Source of the DNA: Symbiodinium sp. CCMP2592
Taxonomy: Eukaryota; Sar; Dinophyceae; Suessiales; Symbiodiniaceae
Assembly: GCA_905221615.1 (NCBI GenBank)
Contig: CAJNDT010006025.1
Span: 1,080,578-1,144,577, forward strand
Reading direction: 5' to 3'
Length of the DNA stretch: 64,000 nt
The position numbers were made by a program, and so were the translations under genes. Positions 404-64,000 of the stretch are shown here, piece by piece; the stretch's first letter is position 1, and every line of letters begins with the position of its first letter. The notes under the pieces were generated by a model, which saw only the letters and a list, made by a program, of their open reading frames with translations, was not told the DNA's origin and ran no database searches.

Positions 404-473
404 CCTACCCTGGACCCTAAACCCTAAACCCTAAACCCCTAAACCCCCAAACCCTAAACCCTAAACCCTTGCC
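404..473. repeat. CCCTAAA telomere-like tract before an exon
   Basis: Degenerate and perfect CCCTAAA units with CCCTAAACC and CCCCAAA variants. It lies just before the exon candidate at 501, and the G-rich counterpart follows that exon at 583-667. This is the first instance of the C-exon-G layout. Confidence 0.8.
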
Positions 474-500
474 CTTGGCCCCTGCTCTGGTACATGGCAG

Positions 501-560
501 ATCTCCAGCGAACGAAAGTACAAGAACGACAAGCGGCCGTTCATCCTGGCCGGGCCTTTC
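501..560 (+). CDS. exon candidate, unrecognised product
   Basis: After an AG acceptor (CATGGCAG) the frame reads ISSERKYKNDKRPFIL followed by AGPF and then TGA. The donor is unclear: a GA donor before the TGA, or a GT at 578 in another frame. KRPFIL resembles a short stretch of family 31 glycosidases, but that is too little to name it. C-rich repeat lies before it and G-rich repeat after. Confidence 0.4.
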
Positions 561-582
561 TGAGCTTCACAGACAGGGTACT

Positions 583-667
583 TGGCTTTACGGGTTAGGG
601 CCGGGTAGGGTTTAGGGCTTAGAGTTGGTATTGTTTTTAGAGTTTGTTTTAGAGTTTAGGGCTTAGG
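583..667. repeat. TTTAGGG telomere-like tract after an exon
   Basis: Units such as TTAGGG, TTTAGGG and TTTAGGGC with errors. It follows the exon candidate at 501-560 and is in inverted orientation to the tract at 404-473. Confidence 0.75.
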
Positions 668-2395: not shown

Positions 2396-2488
2396 CCCCC
2401 TAGGATCGAGCCTGAGCGTGTGACGCTGTGGACGGCTCCTGGGGAGAAGTCGGCCTACCAGGCTTTTGCGGGGAGATTACATGCGCCA
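2396..2488 (+). CDS. exon between inverted telomere-like tracts
   Basis: CTGCAG acceptor, then 31 codons in phase 0 reading PPRIEPERVTLWTAPG and on to GRLHAP, ending at the donor CCA|GTTGGGG. It is the clearest example of an exon framed by C-rich repeat upstream and G-rich repeat downstream. Product unknown. The phase-0 ends mean it could be a cassette exon. Confidence 0.6.
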
Positions 2489-5623: not shown

Positions 5624-5787
5624 CTTACCCGGAGGCTCGTGGGCACTTATAGGTAGGGCTATAAGTAGGGTAACTATAATTCTATCCCAGATTAGGCGAC
5701 TGATAACTCCACTTATAAGCTATAATTATAACCATATTAGGGGACTTACAACTCCACTTATAAGTGCCCATGAACCTCCAGGTAAGG
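5624..5787. mobile_element. TIR element family A (long variant)
   Basis: Ends CTTACCCGGAGGCTCGTGGGCAC and its approximate inverse GTGCCCATGAACCTCCAGGTAAG. The interior carries two extra inverted TATAAG blocks. No flanking exon pair was resolved. Confidence 0.7.
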
Positions 5788-8451: not shown

Positions 8452-8514
8452 GTCCCAAAGAGGTCAAGCCTCTTCCGGAAGCCTGCTTCGAGAACCTCAT
8501 CTATCACGCCTACG
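8452..8514 (+). CDS. exon with telomere-like acceptor
   Basis: The acceptor is itself telomere-like: CCCTAACCCAG|GTCCC. The exon reads PKEVKPLPEACFENLI and YHAY, ending TACG|GTCGGG. Product unknown. The next 110 bp contain TIR family I. Confidence 0.6.
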
Positions 8515-10609: not shown

Positions 10610-11233
10610 GTTGAGGGGTTTTGTGCGGGTCTCATGTCGGGCATGCAAGAGTGCCCAGGGGCTTATAGTAGGCCGTTGGGGTTTGAGCCAAGGGGCTTAT
10701 AAAGTAGGCCATTGGGGTTTGAACGTTTTTTTTTTTTTTTTATGTTTTTTTCTGTTTGGTGTGTTTTGGGGCTTATGGACCGAGGTTTGATGGCATCCGG
10801 GCTTTTGGGGTTTCTTTGGGGTTTCAGCTGCTGTCCGAAGCGCACACGCCAAAGGCATCGACTAGTTTCAATGTTCCTGGCGACAAATTCCCGATAATTG
10901 GGCTCTGCCCACTTTCCCATTCTTTGGGTGTTGATATCCTAAAGGCTTAGTATTTTGTTGGGCGTAGGGTCTTTGGCCAGTAGGTTGTGTCTCGGCGAAT
11001 CACCCCGCGAGGCAAGCTTATCATGGATACCTGAAGTGGCGCAGTCGAAAAGCTTTCTCTTGTCTCCCACGAAACCCCGTAGCCCTAAATCCCATTCACA
11101 TCCTGAAATCTATCTTGAATGCTCCAAAAAGTGCTCTTGTCAGAGTCCGGATGCCTGGTCGATGCAACGCCTCAAGCCGAACCCTAAACCCCAGGCAGGG
11201 CTTGGACCCAAACCGTAATCCCTAAATCCGAAG

Positions 11234-11308
11234 GCTATGGCTTCATCAACCGGCACGACACGCGCCTATGGCCAGTGGTTGACGACGTCATCGAGGCTGA
11301 CCGGGCAG
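11234..11308 (+). CDS. exon, 75 nt
   Basis: Acceptor CCGAAG|GCTATGG and donor GGGCAG|GTAAAA. Reads GYGFINRHDTRLWPVV and DDVIEADRA. GYGFI is reminiscent of cold-shock RNA-binding motifs, but one short motif cannot establish that. CCCTAAA repeat lies just upstream (11163-11229) and TTTAGGG at 11343. Confidence 0.65.
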
Positions 11309-11516
11309 GTAAAAACTAAGGCCTTAAACAGGCTCTCCTAAAGTTTAGGGTTTACATGTTTTATAAGGTCGGTTATCAGATGTCCTCTCGGGGTCAAAAA
11401 CCTCAACCAATATCTTTACTTGATATTCCTTGTGTCCTAAACTCTGCCTAAACTCTTGTATAAAAAGCATGTCGACCTGCCCTTACATTTAGGCAGCAGC
11501 TCCGAACAAGAGCTGT

Positions 11517-13714: not shown

Positions 13715-14590
13715 GTTTAGGGTTTGGGGGGTTTAAGGGGTTTAGGGGTTTAGGGGTTTAGGGTTTAAGGGGTTTAGGGTTTGGGGGGTTTAAGGGGTTT
13801 AGGGGTTTAGGGGTTTAGGGTTTAAGGGGTTTAGGGTTTGGGGGGTTTAGGGGTTTAGGGTTTGGGGGTTTAAGGGGTTTAGGGTTTAAGGGGTTTAGGG
13901 TTTGGGGGGTTTAAGGGGTTTAGGGGTTTAGGGTTTAAGGGGTTTAGGGTTTGGGGGGTTTGGGGGTTTAGGGTTTGGGGGTTTAAGGGGTTTAGGGTTT
14001 GGGGGTTTAAGGGGTTTAGGGTTTGGGGGTTTAAGGGGTTTAGGGTTTGGGGGTTTAAGGGGTTTAGGGTTTGGGGGTTTAAGGGGTTTAGGGTTTGGGG
14101 GTTTAAGGGGTTTAGGGTTTGGGGGTTTAAGGGGTTTAGGGTTTGGGGGTTTAAGGGTTTGGGGGTTTTTAGGGTTTGGGGGTTTAAGGGGTTTAGGGTT
14201 TGGGGGTTTAAGGGGTTTAGGGTTTGGGGGTTTTAAGGGGTTTAGGGTTTGGGGGTTTAAGGGGTTTAGGGTTTGGGGGTTTAAGGGGTTTAGGGTTTGG
14301 GGGTTTAAGGGGTTTAGGGTTTGGGGGTTTAAGGGGTTTAGGGTTTGGGGGTTTAAGGGGTTTAGGGTTTGGGGGTTTAAGGGGTTTAGGGGTTTAGGGG
14401 ATTGGGGGTTTGGGGGTTTAAGGGTTTGGGGGTTTAAGGGGTTAAGGGGTTTAGGGGTTTGGGGGTTTGAGGGTTTAAGGGTTTGGGGGTTTAAGGGGTT
14501 TAGGGGTTTGGAGTTTAGGGGTTTAGGGGTTTAAGGGTTTGGGGGTTTAAGGGTTGGGGGGTTTAAGGAGGGGTTTAGGTGGTCAGGGCC
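13715..14590. repeat. 875-bp composite telomere-like minisatellite
   Basis: The main unit is 24 bp, made of TTTAGGG + TTTGGGGG + TTTAAGGGG (7+8+9), repeated near-perfectly from about 13980 to 14390 with looser variants around it. It starts at or within 20 bp of a splice donor. The pure unit differs from the degenerate interspersed tracts, suggesting recent local expansion. Confidence 0.95.
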
Positions 14591-15420
14591 TATAGGGGCT
14601 TTTGGGGTTCAGGGTTACTTGTTAGGTTTCGAGTTTTTGGTTTTATCGTATAGGAACGAAAGCCGGAGTTTCAGATTTAGAGGAAGACCTGCTTTTGCTG
14701 CTTCTCCCAGAGGGTAGTATGGTGTTTGGGATCCACGTCCAGAATGCTAGTACATCTGGACCCTTTAAAGCCGAAAGCCTTAAACTGTATGAGACGTTAA
14801 GTTCGGCTTGAACCCAGACCTCGACCCCCCCAAAAAAAAGGAAGGTTTCCGGTCCCAATGGGTACTACTGGGCCATACGAGATAGAGCAAAGTTTTGGAG
14901 TATGATAAGAAAGCCCTCCATATACTGAACTCCTACAATACCCAGACAAGCAAAGAGCCCTTGTAGTAAGCCGTTGAAGGAGCCGGTAACCGAATACTAG
15001 CTGATCAGGTTTCGAGATTATGCCCTGAAGAATCTCAAGCTTCCGTTTTGTCCGATGATAACTTGGGATCGAAGAAAACTGCCTAATGTGCGGCTTAGGC
15101 TTCGGAGTTATTGTGTGGGGAGGGTTTAGGGTCTGGGGTTTTGGGTGACATGGCTTTGCGGCCTGATGGGGGATCCCTGGCCCTGATGGTTAGAATCGGG
15201 TTTCGGGGCGGGGCTCTGTTGTAATCTAATAAAGAGTATAGTAAGGAACCGCAGGTAATCGATACTCGTGGCACTTCTTGCTTATGCCTTATATCCTAAG
15301 CGCTACGCTCTAAACCCTAACCCATATGCTTCTATATAGCTTATCACTACGACATGGACCTGAACTTCCAGGGGGGGTCTTATTTTTGGTGGTCCTGTAT
15401 CTAGGGGTCTTTCTGCCCAG

Positions 15421-15760: not shown

Positions 15761-15767
15761 TAAAGCC

Positions 15768-15852
15768 TAAACCCCTAAACTCCTAAACCCCCAAACCCCT
15801 AAACCCTGAACCCCTGGACCCTAAACCCTAAACTCTAAAAGCCTAAGCCCTA
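15768..15852. repeat. CCCTAAA-type tract before an exon
   Basis: CCTAAACCCCTAAAC units ending 15 bp before an acceptor. Confidence 0.75.
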
Positions 15853-15867
15853 CGATCTTCTTGACAG

Positions 15868-15918
15868 GCCTGCAGGCCCAGTTCGACGGCTCCACCTTGA
15901 AGGCGTTGAACCAGGCGG
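15868..15918 (+). CDS. exon, 51 nt
   Basis: TTGACAG acceptor, then LQAQFDGSTLKALNQA, ending GGCGG|GTCTTG. C-rich repeat lies upstream and TTTAGGG at 15979-15998. Product unknown. Confidence 0.6.
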
Positions 15919-16208
15919 GTCTTGGGGCTCAGAAGTGGGTTTCAGATCGTAGTGATGGTAACTTAAGGACACTACAGGGGTTTAGGAAGTTTAGGGTTTT
16001 AGCGCCAAGGGTTTGAGGGCTCAGGTGCTGCGAGTGCAGGCTTTTCGGTCAGGGATTACGGTAATCGTAAGTCCTCACCAAAGCCCTTCATATCTAACAA
16101 GTGACCTTAAGAGATACCCTGCAGCTTTGGTGTTACAGTAGCCTACAGTCATATGCGGGAACTTAAGCGGATCATGCACTACTCAGCGTTTTGCATGCGC
16201 GTGCTCAG

Positions 16209-17518: not shown

Positions 17519-17570
17519 GCGCGCAAACAGCGAGAGCTGAAGGCCGCAGCACAGCTCAGGCGCTCTAAAG
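17519..17570 (+). CDS. exon, Arg/Lys/Ala helix
   Basis: GGGCTAG|TCACC acceptor, then HREARKQRELKAAAQL and RRSK. No GT follows; GC in AAAGG|GCTCC is the likely donor. A coiled-coil or nucleic-acid-binding helix is plausible. Intron family G ends at the acceptor. Confidence 0.6.
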
Positions 17571-17693
17571 GGCTCCTTAAAGGGCTCCTTAAAGGGATCC
17601 TTTAAGGGTTCCTTAAAGGGCTTCTAAAGGGCTCCTTACAGGGTTCCTGAAAGGGTTCCTTAAAGGGCTCCTTCAAGGGATCCTTAAAGCTCG
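17562..17693. repeat. AAAGGGCTCCTT short tandem repeat
   Basis: About ten imperfect 12-13 bp units in which AAGG/CCTT is self-complementary. Single units of the same kind (CCTTTAAAGG) occur throughout the introns. Confidence 0.8.
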
Positions 17694-18987: not shown

Positions 18988-19112
18988 GTTTAGGGTTTAA
19001 GGATTAGGTTGGGGGCTTAAGGTTTAGGGTTTAAGGTTTAGGGTCTAGGGTTATGAGGTTTAGAGTTTAGGGTTTAAGGTTTACGGTTTAGGGCTTCAGG
19101 TTTAGGTATCTC
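18988..19112. repeat. TTTAGGG-type tract starting at a splice donor
   Basis: GTTTAGGGTTTAAGG and variants run directly from the exon end. Confidence 0.85.
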
Positions 19113-34025: not shown

Positions 34026-34345
34026 CTTTCACCCCCAAACCCCTGCAAGACCGTAAACCCCACACAGCCTAAATCCTTAATCCCCCTAAACCCCACACGC
34101 CCTAAAACCGACAACCCCTAAACCCCAAACCTTTGTGCCCCATAAGCCCTAAACAATACACCTTTATACGCCATAAGGCCGAAACTCTAAACCATTATGC
34201 CTCATAAGGCCTCAACCCTAAAACGTTCATACCCCATAAGCCCTAGACCCTAAAGCCATATACCCCCTAAACCCCATAAGTCCTAAGCCCTCCACCGTTG
34301 TATGCCATAAGCCCTAAACCCTAAACCCCGCAAGTCCTGAGCCCT
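34026..34345. repeat. CCCTAAA/CCCCATAAG tract, 320 bp
   Basis: Degenerate units with a frequent CCCCATAAGCC variant, ending in a T-rich acceptor tract. Confidence 0.85.
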
Positions 34346-34360
34346 CCAATTTTTTTTCAG

Positions 34361-34402
34361 GAGCCGGAGAACGATGGCTTGGAGGTGGGGAGACCTGGGG
34401 GG
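34361..34402 (+). CDS. textbook exon, 42 nt
   Basis: TTTTTTTTCAG|GAGCCG, then EPENDGLEVGRPGG, then GG|GTTCTT. Polypyrimidine tract, AG and GT are all present, phase 0 at both ends. C-rich repeat before and G-rich after. Confidence 0.65.
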
Positions 34403-34499
34403 GTTCTTAGGAGGCTACAGGGCTGTTGCTGGCAGCTTGAGGTTGTCGGGTGTGGGGTTCCTTTAAAGGGATCTATAAGATTTACTATAAGGGTACTAT

Positions 34500-34745
34500 A
34501 GGGTTTAGGGTTTCGGTTTCCGGGCTTGGGGTTGAGGATTCAGTGTTCAGGGGTTAGGTTTTCGGTTTTGGGGGTTCAGGGTTCAAGGGTTCAGGCTGGA
34601 GGGGTTGGTTTTCGAATTTGGGGTTTAGGGTTCAGGGTTCATGGCTTAGGGTTTTGGGTTTGGGGTTGAGGGTTTAGGGTTCAGGGGGTTTGGTTTTCGG
34701 GTTTGGGGTCTAGTGTTTCAGGTTTGAGCGTCTGGGGTTTAGGGT
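34500..34745. repeat. TTTAGGG/TTCAGGG tract, about 245 bp
   Basis: GGGTTTAGGG, GGTTCAGGG and GGTTTTCGG variants, in inverted orientation to 34026-34345. Confidence 0.8.
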
Positions 34746-41344: not shown

Positions 41345-41740
41345 GGTTTGACGGATTGAACAATTGGCACATTATATTCTAGTTTCTCAATCTGGGGCTG
41401 CAGATGTTTATTCCAGGTGGTGCCTTCAAGGACCGTGTGCTCATTGACGGATTGAACAGTTGGCACATTATATTCTAGTTTCTCAATCTGGGGCTGCAGA
41501 TGTTTATTCCAGGTGGTGCCTTCAAGGACCGTGTGCTCATTGACGGATTGAACAGTTGGCACATTATATTCTAGTTTCTCAATCTGGGGCTGCAGATGTT
41601 TATTCCAGGTGGTGCCTTCAAGGACCGTGTGCTCATTGACGGATTGAACAGTTGGCACATTATATTCTAGTTTCTCAATCTGGGGCTGCAGATGTTTATT
41701 CCAGGTGGTGCCTTCAAGGACCGTGTGCTCATGGTTGCCG
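41345..41740. repeat. 96-bp tandem repeat containing an exon and its acceptor
   Basis: Four units, nearly identical, each with TTTCTCAATCTGGGGCTGCAG, the exon start ATGTTTATTCCAGG and a truncated exon end. Period 96 bp = 32 codons, so a - strand frame is also periodic. Only the last unit retains the GAG|GTGTGA donor. Confidence 0.95.
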
Positions 41741-51574: not shown

Positions 51575-51821
51575 AGCGTCAGCGGGGTTCAGAGTTGTAA
51601 TTTGTGCACGTGTGAAGTATCATGTTGTGTGTACGGCATTGTGGCACAAGTGCTCTAACAGGAAAAAGGTAGTGACCGAATGGTACAAGCCGTGCTGTTA
51701 TCACTTGGACGGGTATATACAACAGTGCGTGTGTGCAGTGGTTTACAACAACTATAGGTTATCAGCCGTATAGCCTACGGCCTGGTCACAACTGGTTGGT
51801 TACAATACAATCAATCAGCGC
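51575..51821. other. leader of the retrotransposon, LTR not identified
   Basis: The 247 bp before Gag contain a TATA-like GGGTATATACAAC (about 51710) and GGTTATCAGCC (51757), loosely like a copia primer-binding site. No repeat of this stretch is found after 58.5 kb, so a 5' LTR cannot be shown. Confidence 0.3.
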
Positions 51822-53912
51822 ATGAGCGAACCGGAACTTATTCCTGCAAGTATGGATACAGTTACAAGCACCGTGAACCCTTTACAGCCCCCGGTCACGG
51901 GTGGCCATACAGGGAGCGGCGCCCCCGGCTTAGTTTTCCCGGCACCAGCCTCAGTCCAACAATTCAACGTCTTCGCACCACAATATAGTGTTGAAGTACA
52001 CGTTAACCAGATCAGACTGGAAGTCGGAGAACTAGAGGCTCAGGCAGAAGCAAGACACAGGCAACACATGCTGACCTATCAAGAAGCATCCGCAATTCAT
52101 ACAGCTGACTTGGAGCACAGAGCAGAACGAAACCACCTTGAAGTGGTAGCAGAACTGCAAGCAGCCTTGGCACAAAGCGAGTTCAAGGCGGCAAATCGCG
52201 AAAGGCTCCTATTGTCGGAAATGACTTTAAGTCAAGCGCATTCCTATGACGAAGATCAAAGGTTGCGTCAAGAGTTAGCGGAACTTCAACAAAGCCGAAT
52301 CACAGACGCATTGGATCAACATTTGGCGGAATCACGCTTTGCACAGAACCTCGAAGAACAGGCGAGAGGGCACATCGAGAATTCCCAGGAAGTCATGGTT
52401 GAACAGTTCCAAGCACACTTTGAGTTGTTTAGGAACAGGCAGAAAGAAGAGTATGAGGCGTCCCTTGCTGTATGTAGGGAACAGAATGAAGAGCTTCAGG
52501 ACAGGTTGGATTCTGCGGAAACTGCACTAGAGAAGGTCTTGGATCAGTACAATCCAGCTACTCCAAAGAGTCAGCCAGTGCCTGCTCCAAGCACCCCTGC
52601 AGGTCCCTCTGTCGTCCCCAAAGCTCCTCAAGCGCCCATGTTCTCAATGCCGAACGTTATCCCCCAAGGCGCCAGATGTCTGTTCGAGTCAATGAATCCA
52701 GGAGGTTTGAATGCTCAGTCCATTCCGTCTGCAACAGCATCTTCAATCCCCAAGGCAGGACCTTCCCAGGCAGCGCCAGGAACAGCGGCCCCTCCAGCGG
52801 CCGATTCCGGCACGCCAGGGACGGACGCTTTCAACACAGGTCTCCTAGAGACCCAAATGGCAATTCTTCAAAGCCTAAGAAACATAAGGGGTGAGAGCAA
52901 AGTCGATGCTGACAAACCCAAAGTGAAAGAAGCAGAGTCCATCAGCCTTCCGGAGTTTCCAAGTCCAGAGTCGTACCGTTCGTGGAAAACGGCAGCTAGG
53001 GAAGCGGTCAGGGCAGCATCAGATTCACCTGATGAGGCGTTTAAATGGGTGATGAAGGCCTACGACAAAGACGCATCGCAGGAATCCCTTCGAGACCCCG
53101 AGAAATTCCTCACCCTTGACACGAAACTTCTTGCTGCACTCACCAAAGTCGCTAGGGGAGAACTCTCCCGAGAAATCCTCATTTTTAAGGAGACAGAAGC
53201 GGCGAAATTCAGGGCGGTACGAGGACGGCAGGTGCTCTACCTCTTCGATCAGTACTTCAAGACGAACGAGGAGGTTGGATCACTGTACTCCGTGGAGGAC
53301 CTGCTGAAAGTAAGGTTAATCAATGACGACCTTTCAGTGTTCATTAGCAACTGGGAATCTGTCATGTCTGGACTTAGCCACACACCGGACGAAACGACCC
53401 TAAGAGACATTTTCCTTCGTGAACTCAGGCAGTCCAAGAGGCTAAAGTACGATCTTGAGATTTACGACAGGGCAGCAGAGGGCACGGATCAGCACACGTA
53501 CAGGTTTCTTGTGAAGTCACTTAAGGATCTTTTGACCCGAGAGCGCAAACGCAAGAACCGTGACCGCATCGCAAGATCTCACGGAGATAAGTACGGTGCC
53601 CCTGCCTCAAAGTCTCCTGGCCGAACTTCCAGCCCCTCTTCAAGAGGAGGCCGTGGCAGATCGCAGAGCCCAAGGCCAAGATCACCCAGCAAAGGTAGAT
53701 CCCAGTCTCCCAGCAAGCCTAGGACACCTAGCCCAAAGGGAGTATGCTACGATTTCCTCAAAGGAACTTGCAAGCGAGGCAATAACTGCCCTTTCCTTCA
53801 CAAGAAGAGATCATTGTCCCCCAAAGGCGACAAACCGAAGAAGAAAATCAACGTGACATGCAAGTTCTGGAAAGAAGGCAACTGCAACAAGGGTGATAAA
53901 TGTCGGTTTTAG
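51822..53912 (+). CDS. gag: Ty1/copia Gag-like protein with CCCH zinc fingers
   Basis: 696 codons to a TAG. Residues 1-55 are Pro/Ser/Thr-rich; about 60-245 are Glu/Gln-rich coiled coil; 250-345 Pro/Ala linker. About 375-590 is a helical capsid-like region (LPEFPSPESYRSWKTA, RFLVKSLKDLLTRERK). Then come a Ser/Arg/Pro-rich basic tail, a complete CX7CX5CX3H finger (C642-H660) and a second finger, C680-C694. The final His of that finger is the second codon after the stop-interrupted position: CRF-TAG-H. The same frame continues open into the protease, so Gag and protease form one reading frame with one UAG. Starts at the first ATG of a long open frame. Confidence 0.85.
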   Translation: MSEPELIPASMDTVTSTVNPLQPPVTGGHTGSGAPGLVFPAPASVQQFNVFAPQYSVEVHVNQIRLEVGELEAQAEARHRQHMLTYQEASAIHTADLEHRAERNHLEVVAELQAALAQSEFKAANRERLLLSEMTLSQAHSYDEDQRLRQELAELQQSRITDALDQHLAESRFAQNLEEQARGHIENSQEVMVEQFQAHFELFRNRQKEEYEASLAVCREQNEELQDRLDSAETALEKVLDQYNPATPKSQPVPAPSTPAGPSVVPKAPQAPMFSMPNVIPQGARCLFESMNPGGLNAQSIPSATASSIPKAGPSQAAPGTAAPPAADSGTPGTDAFNTGLLETQMAILQSLRNIRGESKVDADKPKVKEAESISLPEFPSPESYRSWKTAAREAVRAASDSPDEAFKWVMKAYDKDASQESLRDPEKFLTLDTKLLAALTKVARGELSREILIFKETEAAKFRAVRGRQVLYLFDQYFKTNEEVGSLYSVEDLLKVRLINDDLSVFISNWESVMSGLSHTPDETTLRDIFLRELRQSKRLKYDLEIYDRAAEGTDQHTYRFLVKSLKDLLTRERKRKNRDRIARSHGDKYGAPASKSPGRTSSPSSRGGRGRSQSPRPRSPSKGRSQSPSKPRTPSPKGVCYDFLKGTCKRGNNCPFLHKKRSLSPKGDKPKKKINVTCKFWKEGNCNKGDKCRF

Positions 53913-55136
53913 CATAAGGACATAGAGAAGCCGTCAGCTCCCGCACCCAAGTCCGAAGCAGCCCCGGCAGCTCCAAAGCCAGGGTCACCCAGGGCCAACT
54001 CTCCTGCTCCGCGCAGAGGGAGAAGTCCCAGGGCTAAGTCAAGTGACAAGGCCCCAAAGACGGCCGCATGCGCCATCGCGTTCGAGAATACAGCGGATCT
54101 TGAGATCTCGCCAAAGCTCGCTATGGCAGCGTCACACGACGAGGACTACTGGGAGGTAGACTTCACCGGCAACAAAATCATCCGCCATCACAAGAAGTAC
54201 CGAACAGATTGGTATGTTCCTGACAATTCATGTCCTGTGAACCCCAAGAAGCTTAGGAGCCAAGCTAAGCTCGAGCAGGTTTTGCCGGTCTCCCCTTTTG
54301 TTGGAAACAAGATCTACAACTGGAGGAAGACCCCAACCAAAGGACCCGGCAGCACATGGGTAGGTAAGACGATCTTCTACATGCAAGAACTCCCTAAGGT
54401 GAGTTTCGACAGCACCGTAGAAATGATTGCCATCGAACCGGAAGGAAAGCAGAGAAAGCATGCCTACCTTCCCAGGGTTTATGATGAAGTCTATCCCACT
54501 GTCGAGGCATGTCCACGCTCGAATCCTAAGGATCTGAAAAGGGCTCTTGTGTGGGCAAAGCAGTTTGCCACCATGATCGAATGCATGATTCACGAAACGC
54601 CTGCGGGATGCGGGTATGAATGCATGGAGGAAGGCTTCCTCTGCGAGGAGTGCGAGCGACTTGCACGTCCGTCATGTGCAGGTCTGGTCCCCGGCTTAGA
54701 ATTCCTAGCGGACACCGGAAGTGAAGAGGACCTCATCAGCAAGTCGGACTGCAGAACTCACTTCCCCGACGTACCCATTGAACCTTCCTCACGTCCTGTT
54801 TCGTTGATCACCGCCAACGGGCCGGTAAAAGGTAATGAAGCCGTTAAGCTAGAGGTCCCTGAAATCAACAAAATCCTCGAATGCTACGTGCTTGATTCAA
54901 CGCCGCCGGTGTGCTCTGTTGGTAGGAGATGTATGGATGAGGGTTTCGATTTCCATTGGTACGCAGGGACGACGCCTTACTTCGTGACACCCGAAGGCCG
55001 GAAACTTTACTGCAAGCTGCGCGGACGAGTCCCGGTAATTGGGGATGGTACAATCGCTGTTCCCGCCAAGGATGAGAAGGCGGCTCATTCGCCAGTCATC
55101 CAGGCAACATCGGGTTTTCCCCGTTCAGCGGCCTAA
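53913..55136 (+). CDS. copia-type protease region (in frame with Gag)
   Basis: Open from the codon after the UAG; the first ATG is at 54123. The first 70 codons are a Pro/Ala/Ser/Lys linker. A module EDYWEVD..IIRHH..WYVP follows (54138-54221). The aspartic protease motif is FLADTGSEEDLI with Asp at 54711-54713. A Cys-rich stretch (CGYECMEEGFLCEECE) precedes it. Ends TAATAA at 55134. The last codons contain the GGGTTTT heptamer used for the proposed -1 shift into the next frame. Product inferred to be released from a Gag-Pol precursor. Confidence 0.75.
   Translation, partial: HKDIEKPSAPAPKSEAAPAAPKPGSPRANSPAPRRGRSPRAKSSDKAPKTAACAIAFENTADLEISPKLAMAASHDEDYWEVDFTGNKIIRHHKKYRTDWYVPDNSCPVNPKKLRSQAKLEQVLPVSPFVGNKIYNWRKTPTKGPGSTWVGKTIFYMQELPKVSFDSTVEMIAIEPEGKQRKHAYLPRVYDEVYPTVEACPRSNPKDLKRALVWAKQFATMIECMIHETPAGCGYECMEEGFLCEECERLARPSCAGLVPGLEFLADTGSEEDLISKSDCRTHFPDVPIEPSSRPVSLITANGPVKGNEAVKLEVPEINKILECYVLDSTPPVCSVGRRCMDEGFDFHWYAGTTPYFVTPEGRKLYCKLRGRVPVIGDGTIAVPAKDEKAAHSPVIQATSGFPRSAA
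55112..55118 (+). promoter_or_regulatory. candidate -1 frameshift heptamer GGGTTTT
   Basis: Reads G-GGT-TTT in the protease frame and GGG-TTT in the -1 frame, matching the X XXY YYZ rule. It lies 16 bases before the protease stop, inside the 60-bp overlap with the integrase/RT frame (open from 55076). A 4-bp stem, GCCT/AGGC, starts 12 bases downstream and a larger CCGAG/CTCGG pairing lies at 55161-55184. No strong pseudoknot was identified. Confidence 0.6.
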
Positions 55137-58100
55137 TAAGGCACGCCAATGCAGCAGAATCCGAGCCGGAAGGCGAATCCTCGGGCAGTGGCCTCGACCC
55201 CAGGATTGAAAAAGCACTGAAAGAGGCTGCTCCGTTAGGTATAAAGGCGGAGTACTTGAACAAACCAGGTTGGGTTTCGCATCCTTCCTTTCCACAGATG
55301 ATCGTGGGGCACTTTCCCAAAACCTTTAGAACGCCTGCTACAAGGTTTCCAAAACACGTCATCCGGAGTACTTGGACTTACGTCAAGAAATGGCAGGAGA
55401 TCGAAAAAGAAGTGGATGTAAGGACGTTGGACAATCGGGTAGCCAAGCTCCCTTCTGATGCCTGCATTCTCAGTGTAACGATCTTTAAAAGACCTGTTGA
55501 TGACCCCGAGCCGGAGCCTGACAGCGAAAGAGAAGCTGAAGCTGACCCAAAGGACGAAAAACGTTCAGCCCAGCTCAAGCTGCAGGCCAATAGCCCGGAG
55601 CACAAATTCACCCACCGTCCTAAGAACCCTTTCTGCAAGGTATGCCAAAAGGCCAAAATGCTAGCGCCACATGCCAGAAAGCGAGGGGGGAGCTCCACTA
55701 TCTTTTCGAAGAAGTTCGGAGACCACGTGACGATTGATCACATTGTGACCAAGGACTTGCGTGATTTTGGGATCGAAGGTGAGAAAGTTGCTCTTGTGGT
55801 TAAGGACGTGTTCACTAACTTTCGTTATGTGTACCCTGCAGGTACGAAGGAGTCGGAAGAGGTTTATGATTGCCTGTTGCACTACTTCGCTGTAGATGAT
55901 GAACCAGGTATCATTTACTCTGACAATGCCCCCGAACTCAAGAATGCTACTGGAAAATACAAAGTTCGTCACAACACCTCACGACCTTACGTCGATGAGA
56001 GCAAGTCTGTTGTTGAGAGAGAGATTCGAACTGTGCTCGAGGGCACACGGGCGAACTTGCTGCAGGCAGGACTTCCAACGAAGCTCTGGCCCTTAGCTGC
56101 TCAACATCACACTATGGCTCTAAACTTGTCCAAAAGGATGGACACCGCGAAGATCCCATGGGACGAAAGGTTCGGTGAAGGGTTTAGCGGTAAGCTCATT
56201 CCTTTTGGTGCCAAGGTTCTCTATTGGAACAATCCCAAAGAGAACATCACAAATGCATCTAAGTTCGACCCAAAGGCCGAAGACGGTATCTTCTTAGGAT
56301 ACCACATTCAACCTGGCTTCATTTGGAGACAGGAATACCTCGTAGCTCCCTTAAAGGGTAGCCAAGATGCAATTGACAATGACGACCTGAGAATCATTCG
56401 GGTCAAGCGCATGGAACTTCCGATAGGGGATATGGTTTTTCCTCTCGCGGTTTCTGAGGATCAGGGGGGTGATCCACCCGAGCTTCAGGATCAAGACTGT
56501 GTTTTCCCAGCTAAGGAGACTACACTTCCTCCTTCAGGTGGTATCGACGACATCTTCGGTCCTAAGGAACTTGATCCTTGGAACCCAGAGGGCAGAGACG
56601 TGGAGGGAGAGCTTGAAAAGCTTAGGCAGAGAGCTTCCGAACCCATTTCTGTTCCTGATGAGGACAAACTCCCTGAGGCTGATGGTAAGTCAGGTAGTGG
56701 TTCCAGCCCCCCGGAAGGGGATGGCCGTGGATCATCAACTGACAAGCCGTCAGATAGCTCCAAACCGAAACCGCCTCCAAAGAGACATGATCCCTACACC
56801 ATGCCCGACGGCAAACCTGTGCCTGAAGGATACAACTGGGATGGGATCAGACTTGTTCGAAACAAGAAGGGCTCGAAGCGACCCCCAGACACCTCTAGCG
56901 AGGAGTGGCACATGATGTCCCGCAATCAGCGCGAGGCTGACATCGAAAGGTATCAGTCTAAATGCCGTCGCGAGGAAGCCGCCCGAGCAGAGGCCGAAAG
57001 GGATGCTTCTCCAGCTATGCCCGTAATGACTTGTCAGAACGAGCCTCATCGTGTCAGGATGGCAACCCTCTACTGGGAAAAGTTAGGGGAACTTTCTGCT
57101 CTTGAGTATGCGTTGGTAGCCAGGGTCGTCAACCAAGCTGAGATTGATCGCACCCCAGCAGCCAAGCAAGCTATGGACAAAGAGTGGCAGAAGCTAGTCG
57201 ATAAATCTTGTTGGTTGCATTCGAAGGTTCGTGAGTTTCGTGATGTTTCCGCTGAAGCAATCAGGAAAGGCATCAAAACCCACTTCGGAAGAATCTTCGA
57301 AATCTGCAGCATCAAGGGCGACGAACTTCCAGAAGGACACCCTGACAGGAAGTGGAAGGGACGTAGCGTGTTCCAGGGGAATCGGGTTTCAGATGAACAT
57401 AACGATCATGCGATCTTCTCTGAACTCGGATCCAGCCCCGCTTCAATGGAGGCCGCTAAAGTCATCGACGTCTTCGGTAGCCAGCCAGGGTACTCGAAGC
57501 AGCAAGCTGACGCGAAGCAGGCTTACACGCAAGCATTATTTAAAGGGGTAGAAACTTGGGTCAGACTTCCGCGCAACCGGTGGCCTAAGGAATGGCGAGG
57601 GTTTTCCGATCCAGTCGTACCTTTAATGTTAGCCCTCTACGGACACCCGGATTCTGGCGGAATCTGGGAAAAACACTGTGAAGACCAGCTGAAGACCGTA
57701 GGGTGGACCCCGGTGTTGCCCGAGATCTGGCAGTCCATTTTCTATCACGCTGAACTTGATCTTCTTTTGGTCATCTACGTTGATGATTTCAAGATGGCTG
57801 GGCCAACTAAGAATCTCGCTAAGGGATGGGCGACAGTTGAGAGTGTCATCGACATGGATCCTCCTGAGCCTTTTGGTAGGTACTTTGGTTGTAATCATTT
57901 TGAGAAAACCCAGGTACAACTTCCCAGATCAGCACATCCGTTTGCATACGTGTTCGACAAGAAGACGGCTGCTCCAGCCCGGGGTGACCCGAGGCCACAA
58001 GTTCGAGAAGACTTCTGGGAAGTCGACACCGAGCTTGGTGCAGTTGTTCGTCATCACGTGTATCCTAGGAAGAGGTTGTATGTTCCCACCAACAGGGACA

Positions 58101-58549
58101 TTGAGGTTTTCCCAAACTTGTCAACAACCAGGGTAACCGCTTTCGATGAAGGTCCGATTGAGGAACACGATGTCAATCTTGACCCCAACCTTAAGCGCGA
58201 GGAGTGGTGGACCGGCCGATCCTTGTTCCCGTTACCAGGTCACGATGCCGAAAAGATCAGACACGCTCTAGCTGCCTCCAAAGGCAAGCCGTCTAGATCT
58301 AAGGCCGAGGCCAAAAGGGAAGCCAAGGAACAGAAGTTCAAGGGAACAGACACGATTTGCAAAGACGCTATTCCTTCAATGGATAAGCCCGTGAACGTTA
58401 TGACATACGACATGAAAGACTTCCTGATTTCTTGTGTGGACAGGTACTGTGATCTCGCTAAGGTCTCGAAGCAGTCCCTTACCAATGTTCCGACTCCGTT
58501 TTCAGAGAACAGAATTGCTAAGCCTACTGCCCAGAGGACGCCCGCTTGA
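55119..58549 (+). CDS. pol: copia integrase and reverse transcriptase, 3'-truncated
   Basis: Open in the -1 frame from 55076; no ATG near the start (a TTG lies at 55256), so shift from the protease frame is the likely entry. In order: HHCC-type zinc region (HKFTHRPKNPFCKVCQ), integrase core with Asp (TIDHI), Asp (YSDNAPEL) and Glu (SVVEREIR), a Pro/Ser/Glu-rich linker, and reverse transcriptase with QADAKQAYTQA and YVDD (57776-57787). After RT comes a second EDFWEVD..VVRHH..LYVP module, then ISCVDRYCDLAKVSKQ and VPTPF before TGA. RNase H is absent, so the element is truncated and probably not autonomous. Confidence 0.85.
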
Positions 58550-62459: not shown

Positions 62460-62504
62460 ATTTACTTGACCTTTTAATCTTCAAAACCTTTAGCTGTCTT
62501 CAAG

Positions 62505-62725
62505 CCGTCAAGGGCTGGAAGCCTATTGAAGCCGTCAAGGGCTGGAAGCCCTATTGAAGCCGTCAAGGGCTGGAAGCCCTATTGAAGCCGTCAAGGGCTG
62601 GAAGCCCTATTGAAGCCGTCAAGAGCTGGAAGCCCTATTGAAGCCGTCAAGAGCTGGAAGCCCTATTGAAGCTGTCAGGGGCTGGAAGCCCTATTGAAGC
62701 TGTCAGGGGCTGGAAGCCCTTTTAG
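62505..62725. repeat. 28-bp minisatellite of hairpin units
   Basis: Eight units of GCCGTCAAGGGCTGGAAGCC+CTATTGAA. Each contains GGGCTGGAAGCCC, a 5-bp stem with a GGA loop. CAAGGG to CAAGAG and GCCGTCAAG to GCTGTCAGG variants mark subgroups. Confidence 0.9.
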
Positions 62726-62877: not shown

Positions 62878-64000
62878 ATGTATACGCCACATGTAAAACG
62901 ATTTTTGAAAACCCGTAAGCTTTCTTTGAAATCTCGGCAGCTTGCAGGAGGTCAAGCTGAGACGGAGGATCCCGCTGCCCTCGAGTTCTTGGAAGCCGAA
63001 CTTGCCAAGCTCCAGGAGACCAGGCTCGAGGTGGCCCACGAGATCTACAGGCGCAACCGCGAGGTCGGATCTTTAAAACATAATTATCATCTACTCTTTA
63101 AGCAAAGATTTTATTGTAAAAAACCTATTATACTGTTTCCTTCTATTCTGAATTCTAGGAATATACGATTTCCAAGGCCCAGCTCCAGGACGAGCAGGAA
63201 AACGAAAGGCAGGCCACAGAGACGGAATTCCAAGAATTCCAAGAGTCAATGGAAGAAGTCAAGGCGAACTCTGATGCCGAATGGGAGGAAAAAATGATAA
63301 AGGAGGTGGAGGAGAGGAGGGCCAAGAGGTCGAAGACGAGGAGTGACGACCTAAGCAGAACGCTGGTCGTCAAGCGCCAAGACCTCGACAGAGAGCTCTC
63401 CAAGCTCCAGGAAGCACTCATCTCCAGGTACGACCGGGACGTGAGGGACCAGTTGTCCAGGTTGAAGTTGGAAGTCTGGAAGTCCAAGGACCAGGACTTC
63501 ACGACCAGGCTGGAGATGGAGACCGAGAAGATCCTCAAGCTTCGTCCACGCACTGAAGACATGCTGCAAGCTATGGACAACCTCAGGTCTCAAGCCGGTC
63601 TTCCCAAGTCCGACCGGTCCCAAGGTCCCCAGAGCCATGATCTTTTGGGTCTTGGCCAGGACCAAGTCGACCCGCCCCAGGGCTTCCCCAGTTTGGCAGC
63701 CACCAAAAGCCCACCAGCAGCCACCAACACAACCCGGAGCAGACCACGGAGCAGCCCCCAGGCCCAGCAGACGGTACTGACAACACCGGCCAAGGGGATG
63801 GCCAAGGGGATGGCCAAGGGGATGGCCAAGAGGATGGCCAAGGGGATGGCCAAGCGGATGGCCAGAACCAGCAGGGGTGGACCAACTCCGGGAACCAAGG
63901 TGGCAACCAAGGCGGCTACCAAGGCGGCAACCAGGGCGGCAACCAGGGCGGCCCTTGGAGCAACTACGGCCGCACCCAAGGCCAAGGCTCCTCCTCCCAC
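62878..64000 (+). CDS. coiled-coil protein gene 4, partial at the window edge
   Basis: A frame from ATG 62878, or more likely from acceptor CTTGCAG|GAGG at 62948, reads GGQAETEDPAALEFLE and AELAKLQETRLEVAHE, ending CGCGAG|GTCGGA at 63063. The GT-AG intron 63064-63158 (95 bp) joins in phase 0 to 63159: EYTISKAQLQDEQENE, FQEFQESMEEVKANSD, SKLQEALISRYDRDVR, ETEKILKLRPRTEDML. Heptad-rich coiled coil for about 170 residues, then a Pro/Gln/Ser-rich tail. From about 63700 two frames are open: the continuing one (AKGMAKGMAKRM, KAATKAATRAA) and a shifted one (GQGDGQGDGQED, NQGGNQGGYQGG). Structural or scaffolding role inferred only. Confidence 0.65.

Follow-up and report, generated by a model that had tools for sequence, protein, structure and literature searches.

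The closest described relatives of the arrangement considered here are the introners of dinoflagellates (Amoebophrya, Symbiodinium and Polarella), which resemble it, in the accessible parts of their descriptions, in inverted complementary intron ends, a dinoflagellate genome and non-canonical donors. The use of GC and GA donors is described for Symbiodiniaceae in the accessible part of PMC11453091. Introners with terminal inverted repeats (TIRs), as partly described, have their TIRs directly at the splice sites or adjoining them, in many cases with target-site duplications, and form families of similar copies, whereas the arrays reported here lie tens of nucleotides inside the intron, differ in length and are independent of each other at the two ends. 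The nonconventional introns of euglenids share the idea of intron ends that pair to join the exons (PMC4770533, in part), but in the present genome specific pairing did not emerge, and the acceptors are AG|G and the donors G[CTA]. In mammals, according to the accessible part of PMC9065059, G-runs and G-quadruplex motifs are likewise enriched on the G-rich RNA strand just past 5' splice sites (5.6-fold as compared with 2.4-fold on the template strand). The mammalian 3' splice site is nearly devoid of strand bias (3.0 versus 2.8; same source), in contrast to the 3' side here, which has the opposite strand and telomere-type sequence. Plant telo boxes and interstitial telomeric repeats are likewise short motifs of telomere type that are scattered through genes. 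The telo boxes are most frequent in 5' UTRs, fall slightly under expectation in plant introns overall and are commoner in the first two introns, and the accessible text of PMC3022908 mentions neither splicing nor orientation in connection with them.

In the dinoflagellate genome analyzed here the directional flanking of exons by telomere-like repeats is a real pattern, with CCCTAAA-type sequence before the exon and TTTAGGG-type sequence after it. This exon-side telomere polarity is apparently undescribed so far: no such arrangement appears in the titles and abstract openings among the matches listed on dinoflagellate and Symbiodiniaceae introners, telomere repeats, introns, splice sites and intron gain, the literature covered containing few subscription journals. 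In the mapped dinoflagellate genes small exons are very numerous and splice sites are loose, and the repeat signature around exons offers a direct handle on how the spliceosome finds exons of this kind. Being directional and genome-wide, it can also serve gene finders for these genomes as a new feature, and it allows one to ask how interstitial telomere sequence originates and how selection sorts it.

Telomere-like islands and candidate exons in the window

The genome, whose genes are Symbiodinium-like, consists of 1,098,105,373 bases in 5383 contigs. The window, i.e. the whole 64-kb stretch of DNA that was analyzed, occupies positions 1080578–1144577 of its contig (C5163). The sampled sequence comprised the window contig (the window and 100 kb upstream) and 100 kb of contig C1 (2400001–2500000). 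Islands were defined as runs of 7-mer rotations of the telomere-like unit; 132 TTTAGGG and 93 CCCTAAA were counted in the window. In its segment 404–667 a C-rich island is followed by a spacer and then by a G-rich island. The features surrounding this and four further candidate exons are listed below (islands are unstranded and, unless stated otherwise, called by 7-mer rotations; percentiles refer to random stretches).

414–469, unstranded, C-rich telomere-like island (CCCTAAA type), 7-mer rotations and direct reading
501–553, plus strand, candidate exon ISSERKYKNDKRPFILA with AG|A acceptor and GC donor, by eye, unproven
606–661, unstranded, G-rich telomere-like island (TTTAGGG type)
2150–2360, unstranded, C-rich telomere-like island
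2404–2461, plus strand, candidate exon IEPERVTLWTAPGEKSAYQ with AG|G acceptor and GC donor, by eye, unproven, scan favoured a minus-strand model
2503–2602, unstranded, G-rich telomere-like islands (2503–2519 and 2571–2602)
11180–11226, unstranded, C-rich telomere-like island
11234–11304, plus strand, candidate exon YGFINRHDTRLWPVVDDVIEADR with AG|G acceptor and, in the scan, GC donor, 94th percentile
11344–11350, unstranded, TTTAGGG 3' of candidate exon 11234, motif listing
15766–15833, unstranded, C-rich telomere-like island
15868–15914, plus strand, candidate exon LQAQFDGSTLKALNQ with AG|G acceptor and GC donor, scan, 99th percentile
15978–16014, unstranded, G-rich telomere-like island
34054–34328, unstranded, C-rich telomere-like island
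34361–34384, plus strand, candidate small exon EPENDGLE with AG|G acceptor and GT donor, scan, 95th percentile
34499–34681, unstranded, G-rich telomere-like islands (34499–34513 and 34621–34681)

The preliminary description had named seven exon candidates with C-type sequence upstream and G-type sequence downstream. This is the case for those at 501, 2396, 11234, 15868 and 34361, and not fully so for those at 8452 and 18908. Upstream of candidate 8452 the C-rich sequence is limited to a degenerate stretch, the next CCCTAAA (8625) lying downstream, and not a single TTTAGGG starts between 6186 and 9682. Candidate 18908 is followed by TTTAGGG at 18989, and no CCCTAAA starts between 17839 and 20392. 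The splice-site scan independently begins exons at 11234, 15868 and 34361, as well as at 8452 (75th percentile). At 501, 2396 and 18908 it favours minus-strand models (90th, 85th and 96th percentile), the one at 501 extending over 480–545. In candidate exon 11234 a GT is found four bases beyond the GC donor of the scan. The window's own exons remain unproven candidates, since no protein homologue was found for the window exon fragments among the ~8000 candidates scored per search. The candidate exon at 501 was also considered as part of a GH31 glycosidase, and a GH31 query gave no convincing match in the window.

The spliced leader is a mark of dinoflagellates. A 15-base fragment of it has no exact match in the window or the sampled 10-kb loci, so this mark was not seen there. 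Elsewhere on the window contig (C5163:1039653–1039988) there is an open cytochrome c6-like coding stretch; its Pfam cytochrome match is below the cut-off and its assignment to c6 was made by eye.

Orientation of arrays at mapped splice sites and across the genome

Exon chains were built from homologous proteins for three genes on one strand (minus) of contig C1 2400001–2500000: a GH72 glucanosyltransferase-like, a PPR and a cytochrome-b5/ankyrin gene, with ~95 aligned exon blocks in all. Two of the homologous proteins are apparently transcript-derived, because they are uninterrupted on contigs of 2–4 kb. Exons of one C1 gene are matched, many of them at 94–100% identity, by a eukprot protein (identifier form s2090_g3) and by another derived from JGI contigs. 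In a Pfam search over chained fragments of the sampled sequence, GH72 and a TLC domain passed the cut-offs, and prefoldin, histone, cytochrome and two others stayed below them. In gene models of relatives the GH72 and PPR genes are joined (P0057, P0058). Junctions were accepted with GT, GC or GA donors, AG acceptors and at most 4 unmatched residues, by which 85 of 92 passed and 7 were dropped. The resolved introns use GC (49), GA (18) and GT (18) donors, the three favoured by the junction scoring, and in 80 of 85 the AG acceptor is followed by G, although the scoring ignored that G. GC/GA/GT donors with AG|G acceptors are those of dinoflagellate introns. Exons bounded on both sides (n = 78) have a median length of 51 nt (range 18–268). 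Within the mapped exons (4370 nt) there are 18 C-type and 0 G-type telomere 7-mers, which may reflect coding use of the repeat or a misplaced exon edge. The mapped sample is tied to its region, as the three genes share one 61-kb stretch of one contig; the tests on the window contig and the whole genome are independent of the C1 region. Kinesin genes had been tried as a truth set and were abandoned, their 19 loci being nearly free of telomere repeats except L047.

At the mapped splice sites the arrays are clearly polar. Within 120 nt, donors have G-type islands in 26 cases and C-type in 12, and acceptors have C-type in 27 and G-type in 8, i.e. 53 sites follow the strand rule claimed at the outset and 20 are contrary to it. 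The preliminary description had called for comparison with shuffled positions. When splice sites were shifted circularly within each gene, 0 of 2000 shifts reached the observed difference of 33 (mean 0.2, largest 20), and the direction holds whichever of the three genes is left out. The first 30 nt past donors contain 55 G-type and 3 C-type 7-mers, and the segment 15–60 nt upstream of acceptors contains 177 C-type and 10 G-type. At 100–150 nt upstream of acceptors the direction is contrary (43 G-type versus 10 C-type). Regardless of distance, the island nearest to the donor is G-type in 31 introns and C-type in 24 (p = 0.42), and that nearest to the acceptor is C-type in 37 and G-type in 18 (p = 0.014). 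A 6-mer test that presupposes no motif (65 introns) returned GGGTTT as the most donor-biased word (22:3) and CCTAAA as the most acceptor-biased (21:5). The proposed tendency of introns towards G-rich starts and C-rich ends agrees with the introns that hold both types, where the mean G position precedes that of C in 19 of 21 (p = 2e-4).

The polarity is confined to the surroundings of splice sites. Island density in the 120 nt past donors is 3.04 per kb for G-type and 1.09 for C-type, in the 120 nt before acceptors 3.15 for C-type and 0.65 for G-type, and in intron interiors 0.89 for G-type and 0.95 for C-type. As the contrary type (1.09 and 0.65) stays near the interior level, the rule amounts to an excess of one orientation next to splice sites and not to a general purge. 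By island count, 81 islands lie no more than 150 nt from a splice site, of which 59 obey the rule and 22 break it; 46 lie farther off. The interiors are unpolarised in density and show no clear sequence of types (adjacent island pairs GC 11, CG 7). Only about a third of splice sites carry an array. G-to-C polarity is absent from ten kinesin introns that are free of telomere repeats and were delimited roughly by the domain matches, so polarity is not a general requirement. The nearest island downstream of the kinesin exon at L047 is C-type, contrary to the rule. The kinesin loci are poor in telomere repeats and contain several short introns; the repeat load thus differs strongly between genes.

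The same direction is seen where no exons were mapped. Telomere-type 21-mers occur 73488 times forward and 75164 times reverse in the 1.1-Gb genome, compared with 0 and 1 for the backward control. These are tandem telomere-type repeats away from chromosome ends, i.e. interstitial telomeric repeats, and arrays of this kind lie inside the mapped introns. The pattern CCCTAAACCCTAAA-N90-120-TTTAGGGTTTAGGG, in which a C-type 14-mer precedes a G-type one, is found 6324 times genome-wide as compared with 1139 for G-then-C (multi-unit arrays being counted more than once in both orders), and backward-read controls gave 0. Among island neighbours 80–200 nt apart in 251.5 kb, the C-then-G to G-then-C ratio is 79:45 at the loosest cut-off (7 nt) and 38:18, 23:6 and 13:2 at the stricter ones (9, 14 and 20 nt). 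At gaps below 40 nt, into which few exons fit, it is 15:17, 6:2, 4:1 and 1:1 at 7, 9, 14 and 20 nt.

Spacers between islands were scored as exons with splice-site tables from the contig C1 genes and a codon table from kinesin exons, against random stretches of the window contig. For this purpose all 37 distinct C-to-G places among the matches listed (nine contigs) and 20 of the 39 listed distinct G-to-C places (twelve contigs) were fetched. The C-to-G spacers are exon-like (p = 7e-9; 38% exceed the random 90th percentile; GC 0.567), and the G-to-C spacers score no better than random stretches (p = 0.83; 5% over the 90th percentile; GC 0.472). In the window contig, window included, 28 C-to-G spacers are exon-like (p = 3.6e-5), and 14 G-to-C (p = 0.1), 18 C-C (p = 0.7) and 15 G-G (p = 0.95) spacers are not. 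Finally, 184 exons predicted in the window contig with the C1 splice-site tables (score at least 11) have C-type rather than G-type islands on the acceptor side (42 versus 18) and G-type rather than C-type on the donor side (47 versus 18); in their lowest-scoring class (63 exons) the acceptor bias is absent (12:12).

Independence of intron ends and possible origins of the polarity

The preliminary description proposed that the G-rich start of an intron pairs with its C-rich end in the pre-mRNA and brings the splice sites together, much as the terminal inverted repeats of introners do. Complementary end orientations and the order of the two types in 19 of 21 introns speak for such pairing, and a mechanism of this kind is assumed for the nonconventional introns of euglenids (PMC4770533, in part) and for the introners of Amoebophrya. 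Joint action of the two ends is, however, not supported. Among introns of at least 240 nt (n = 65) there are 22 with donor-side G and 24 with acceptor-side C, and only 7 with both, where 8.1 are expected under independence (p = 0.60). The two flanks of one exon are also independent (both in 5 of 78; p = 0.30). The end-to-end duplex energy is slightly lower within an intron than in permuted pairs, which leans toward pairing and is not significant (p = 0.079, n = 69). Neighbouring island pairs, chosen regardless of mapped exons and compared with permuted ones, gave similar values for G-to-C (n = 95, p = 0.09) and C-to-G (n = 93, p = 0.11), again with no significant specificity for the partner. 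In minimum-free-energy (MFE) folds of six hand-picked, partly overlapping segments, telomeric G bases pair with telomeric C of the same intron in 65 cases and of a neighbouring intron in 77; of the remainder, 204 have their partner in other sequence and 43 have none. No euglenid-type helix specific to the ends of one intron was found in the computed duplexes and folds. Pairing across the exon would compete, because C-exon-G is an inverted repeat too and the median exon has 51 nt; the island partner on the far side of such an exon is about equally complementary and closer, and its pairing would favour skipping. In view of these data we regard pairing of intron ends as very unlikely to underlie the polarity.

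The independence bears also on explanations at the DNA level. Introner transposons with telomere-like TIRs, or another exon-edge element of fixed polarity, could have brought the arrays in; dinoflagellate introners are very active and some have TIRs (PMC11453091, PMC7789003, PMC9860276, each in part), and the G-to-C island gaps show a bump at 200–250 nt (14 versus 3 C-to-G at the 9-nt cut-off). Three features of TIR introners were looked for in the mapped introns, namely coupled ends, a mutual match and repeats starting at the splice boundary, and none was seen. The arrays are not terminal inverted repeats, since the ends occur independently and do not match significantly better than the ends of different introns. 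The arrays vary in length and do not abut the splice sites: considering arrays within 150 nt, they start at a median of 34 nt inside the donor (n = 26, smallest 7) and end at a median of 38 nt before the acceptor (n = 27, smallest 6). When neighbouring G-to-C islands are taken as putative introns, their lengths correlate at 0.11, and adjacent G and C islands show no significant correlation in length or in sequence. Such an insertion is therefore improbable as the source of the polarity.

Telomerase is known to insert sequence at breaks in mammals. If a double-strand break received TTTAGGG from it at both 3' ends and was then rejoined, the product would be G-rich and then C-rich on either strand. 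This predicts exactly the observed polarity regardless of gene strand, and each C-exon-G unit is oriented like a capped linear DNA. The mechanism nevertheless needs coupled ends, which are not seen, and gaps below 40 nt show no surplus of direct G-to-C junctions (G-to-C to C-to-G 17:15 at 7 nt and 2:6 at 9 nt). Moreover, a break gives no reason for polarity at exons but not in interiors. Both double healing by telomerase and TIR introners were favoured at first and were dropped once the ends proved independent; healing of this kind now seems hardly probable.

An effect of composition or age is the remaining alternative: G-skewed intron starts and C-skewed ends would seed expansion by slippage, and later insertions would dilute the middles. 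A weak polarity is seen in telomere-free introns of the mapped genes, for array words as well as for other G-rich ones (n = 20, p = 0.05–0.11). GGG stands at 35:17 and CCC at 18:40. The non-array words may, however, be decayed arrays, and the ten kinesin introns are without skew. We consider this origin unlikely, too.

Since, in the three mapped genes, the orientation at a splice site is independent both of the other end of the intron and of the other side of the exon, the polarity is most simply local to each site. Together with its restriction to splice-site surroundings, this points to something that reads exon polarity locally, for which the splicing machinery would be the obvious candidate. 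The best explanation, to which we assign a probability of about one half, is that each splice site independently keeps or acquires an array in the orientation compatible with splicing. The genome is seeded with degenerate interstitial telomere-like arrays, and the orientation preferred near exons gives UUUAGGG RNA within ~120 nt past the 5' splice site and CCCUAAA RNA within ~120 nt before the 3' splice site. Splicing-compatible arrays would be kept, or would be favoured as an optional splicing context, namely G-runs past donors and G-free, pyrimidine-rich tracts before acceptors. A G-type array before an acceptor would produce decoy acceptors in rows, as TTTAG|GG conforms to the AG|G rule of this genome. 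Simple purging fails to explain the enrichment, as contrary islands are little depleted relative to interiors. Splicing may be the agent that selects the arrays; the lack of a relation to splice-site strength or exon length and the ten kinesin introns devoid of polarity speak against it.

It is conceivable, if more doubtful than such site-by-site retention, that in this coral-symbiont-type alga telomeric repeats have been recruited as an orientation-coded exon-definition signal. Thousands of tiny exons would then be framed like miniature chromosomes, by CCCTAAA on the left and TTTAGGG on the right. Each bracket would act on the splice site beside it, in a genome whose splice sites are weak and non-canonical and whose pyrimidine tracts are scant. 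Compensation by the arrays for weak splice sites or short exons found no support: donor strength is 3.49 with an array and 2.70 without (p = 0.058), which is opposite to compensation, and sites with and without arrays do not differ significantly in acceptor strength (p = 0.46) or in the length of the exon (p = 0.64). CTAAAC was also considered as a branch point and was set aside, no clear branch motif being present in 24 telomere-free introns.

A general self-comparison of the sampled sequence showed other repeats. The window contains, at 13729–14616, a G-rich telomere-like array of 888 bases that has a higher-order unit of 24 and 72 bases and is far longer than the exon-flanking islands. Three consecutive long open frames at 51774–58549 (plus strand) are retrotransposon-like; a CCCH zinc-finger gag-like part was found with Pfam, the integrase- and reverse-transcriptase-like parts were recognised by eye only, and no telomere islands were called in this segment. 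A 96-base unit is repeated four times in tandem (99% alike) at 41348–41732 within a minus-strand open frame, and a 28-base unit ~8 times (97% alike) at 62502–62720, with a 12-base array afterwards at 63788–63864. Other tandem or palindromic words, namely TAAAGGGCTCCT and a 45-base unit rich in TATAAG, lie at 17566–17689 and 5674–5764 and resemble a second repeat system in this DNA.
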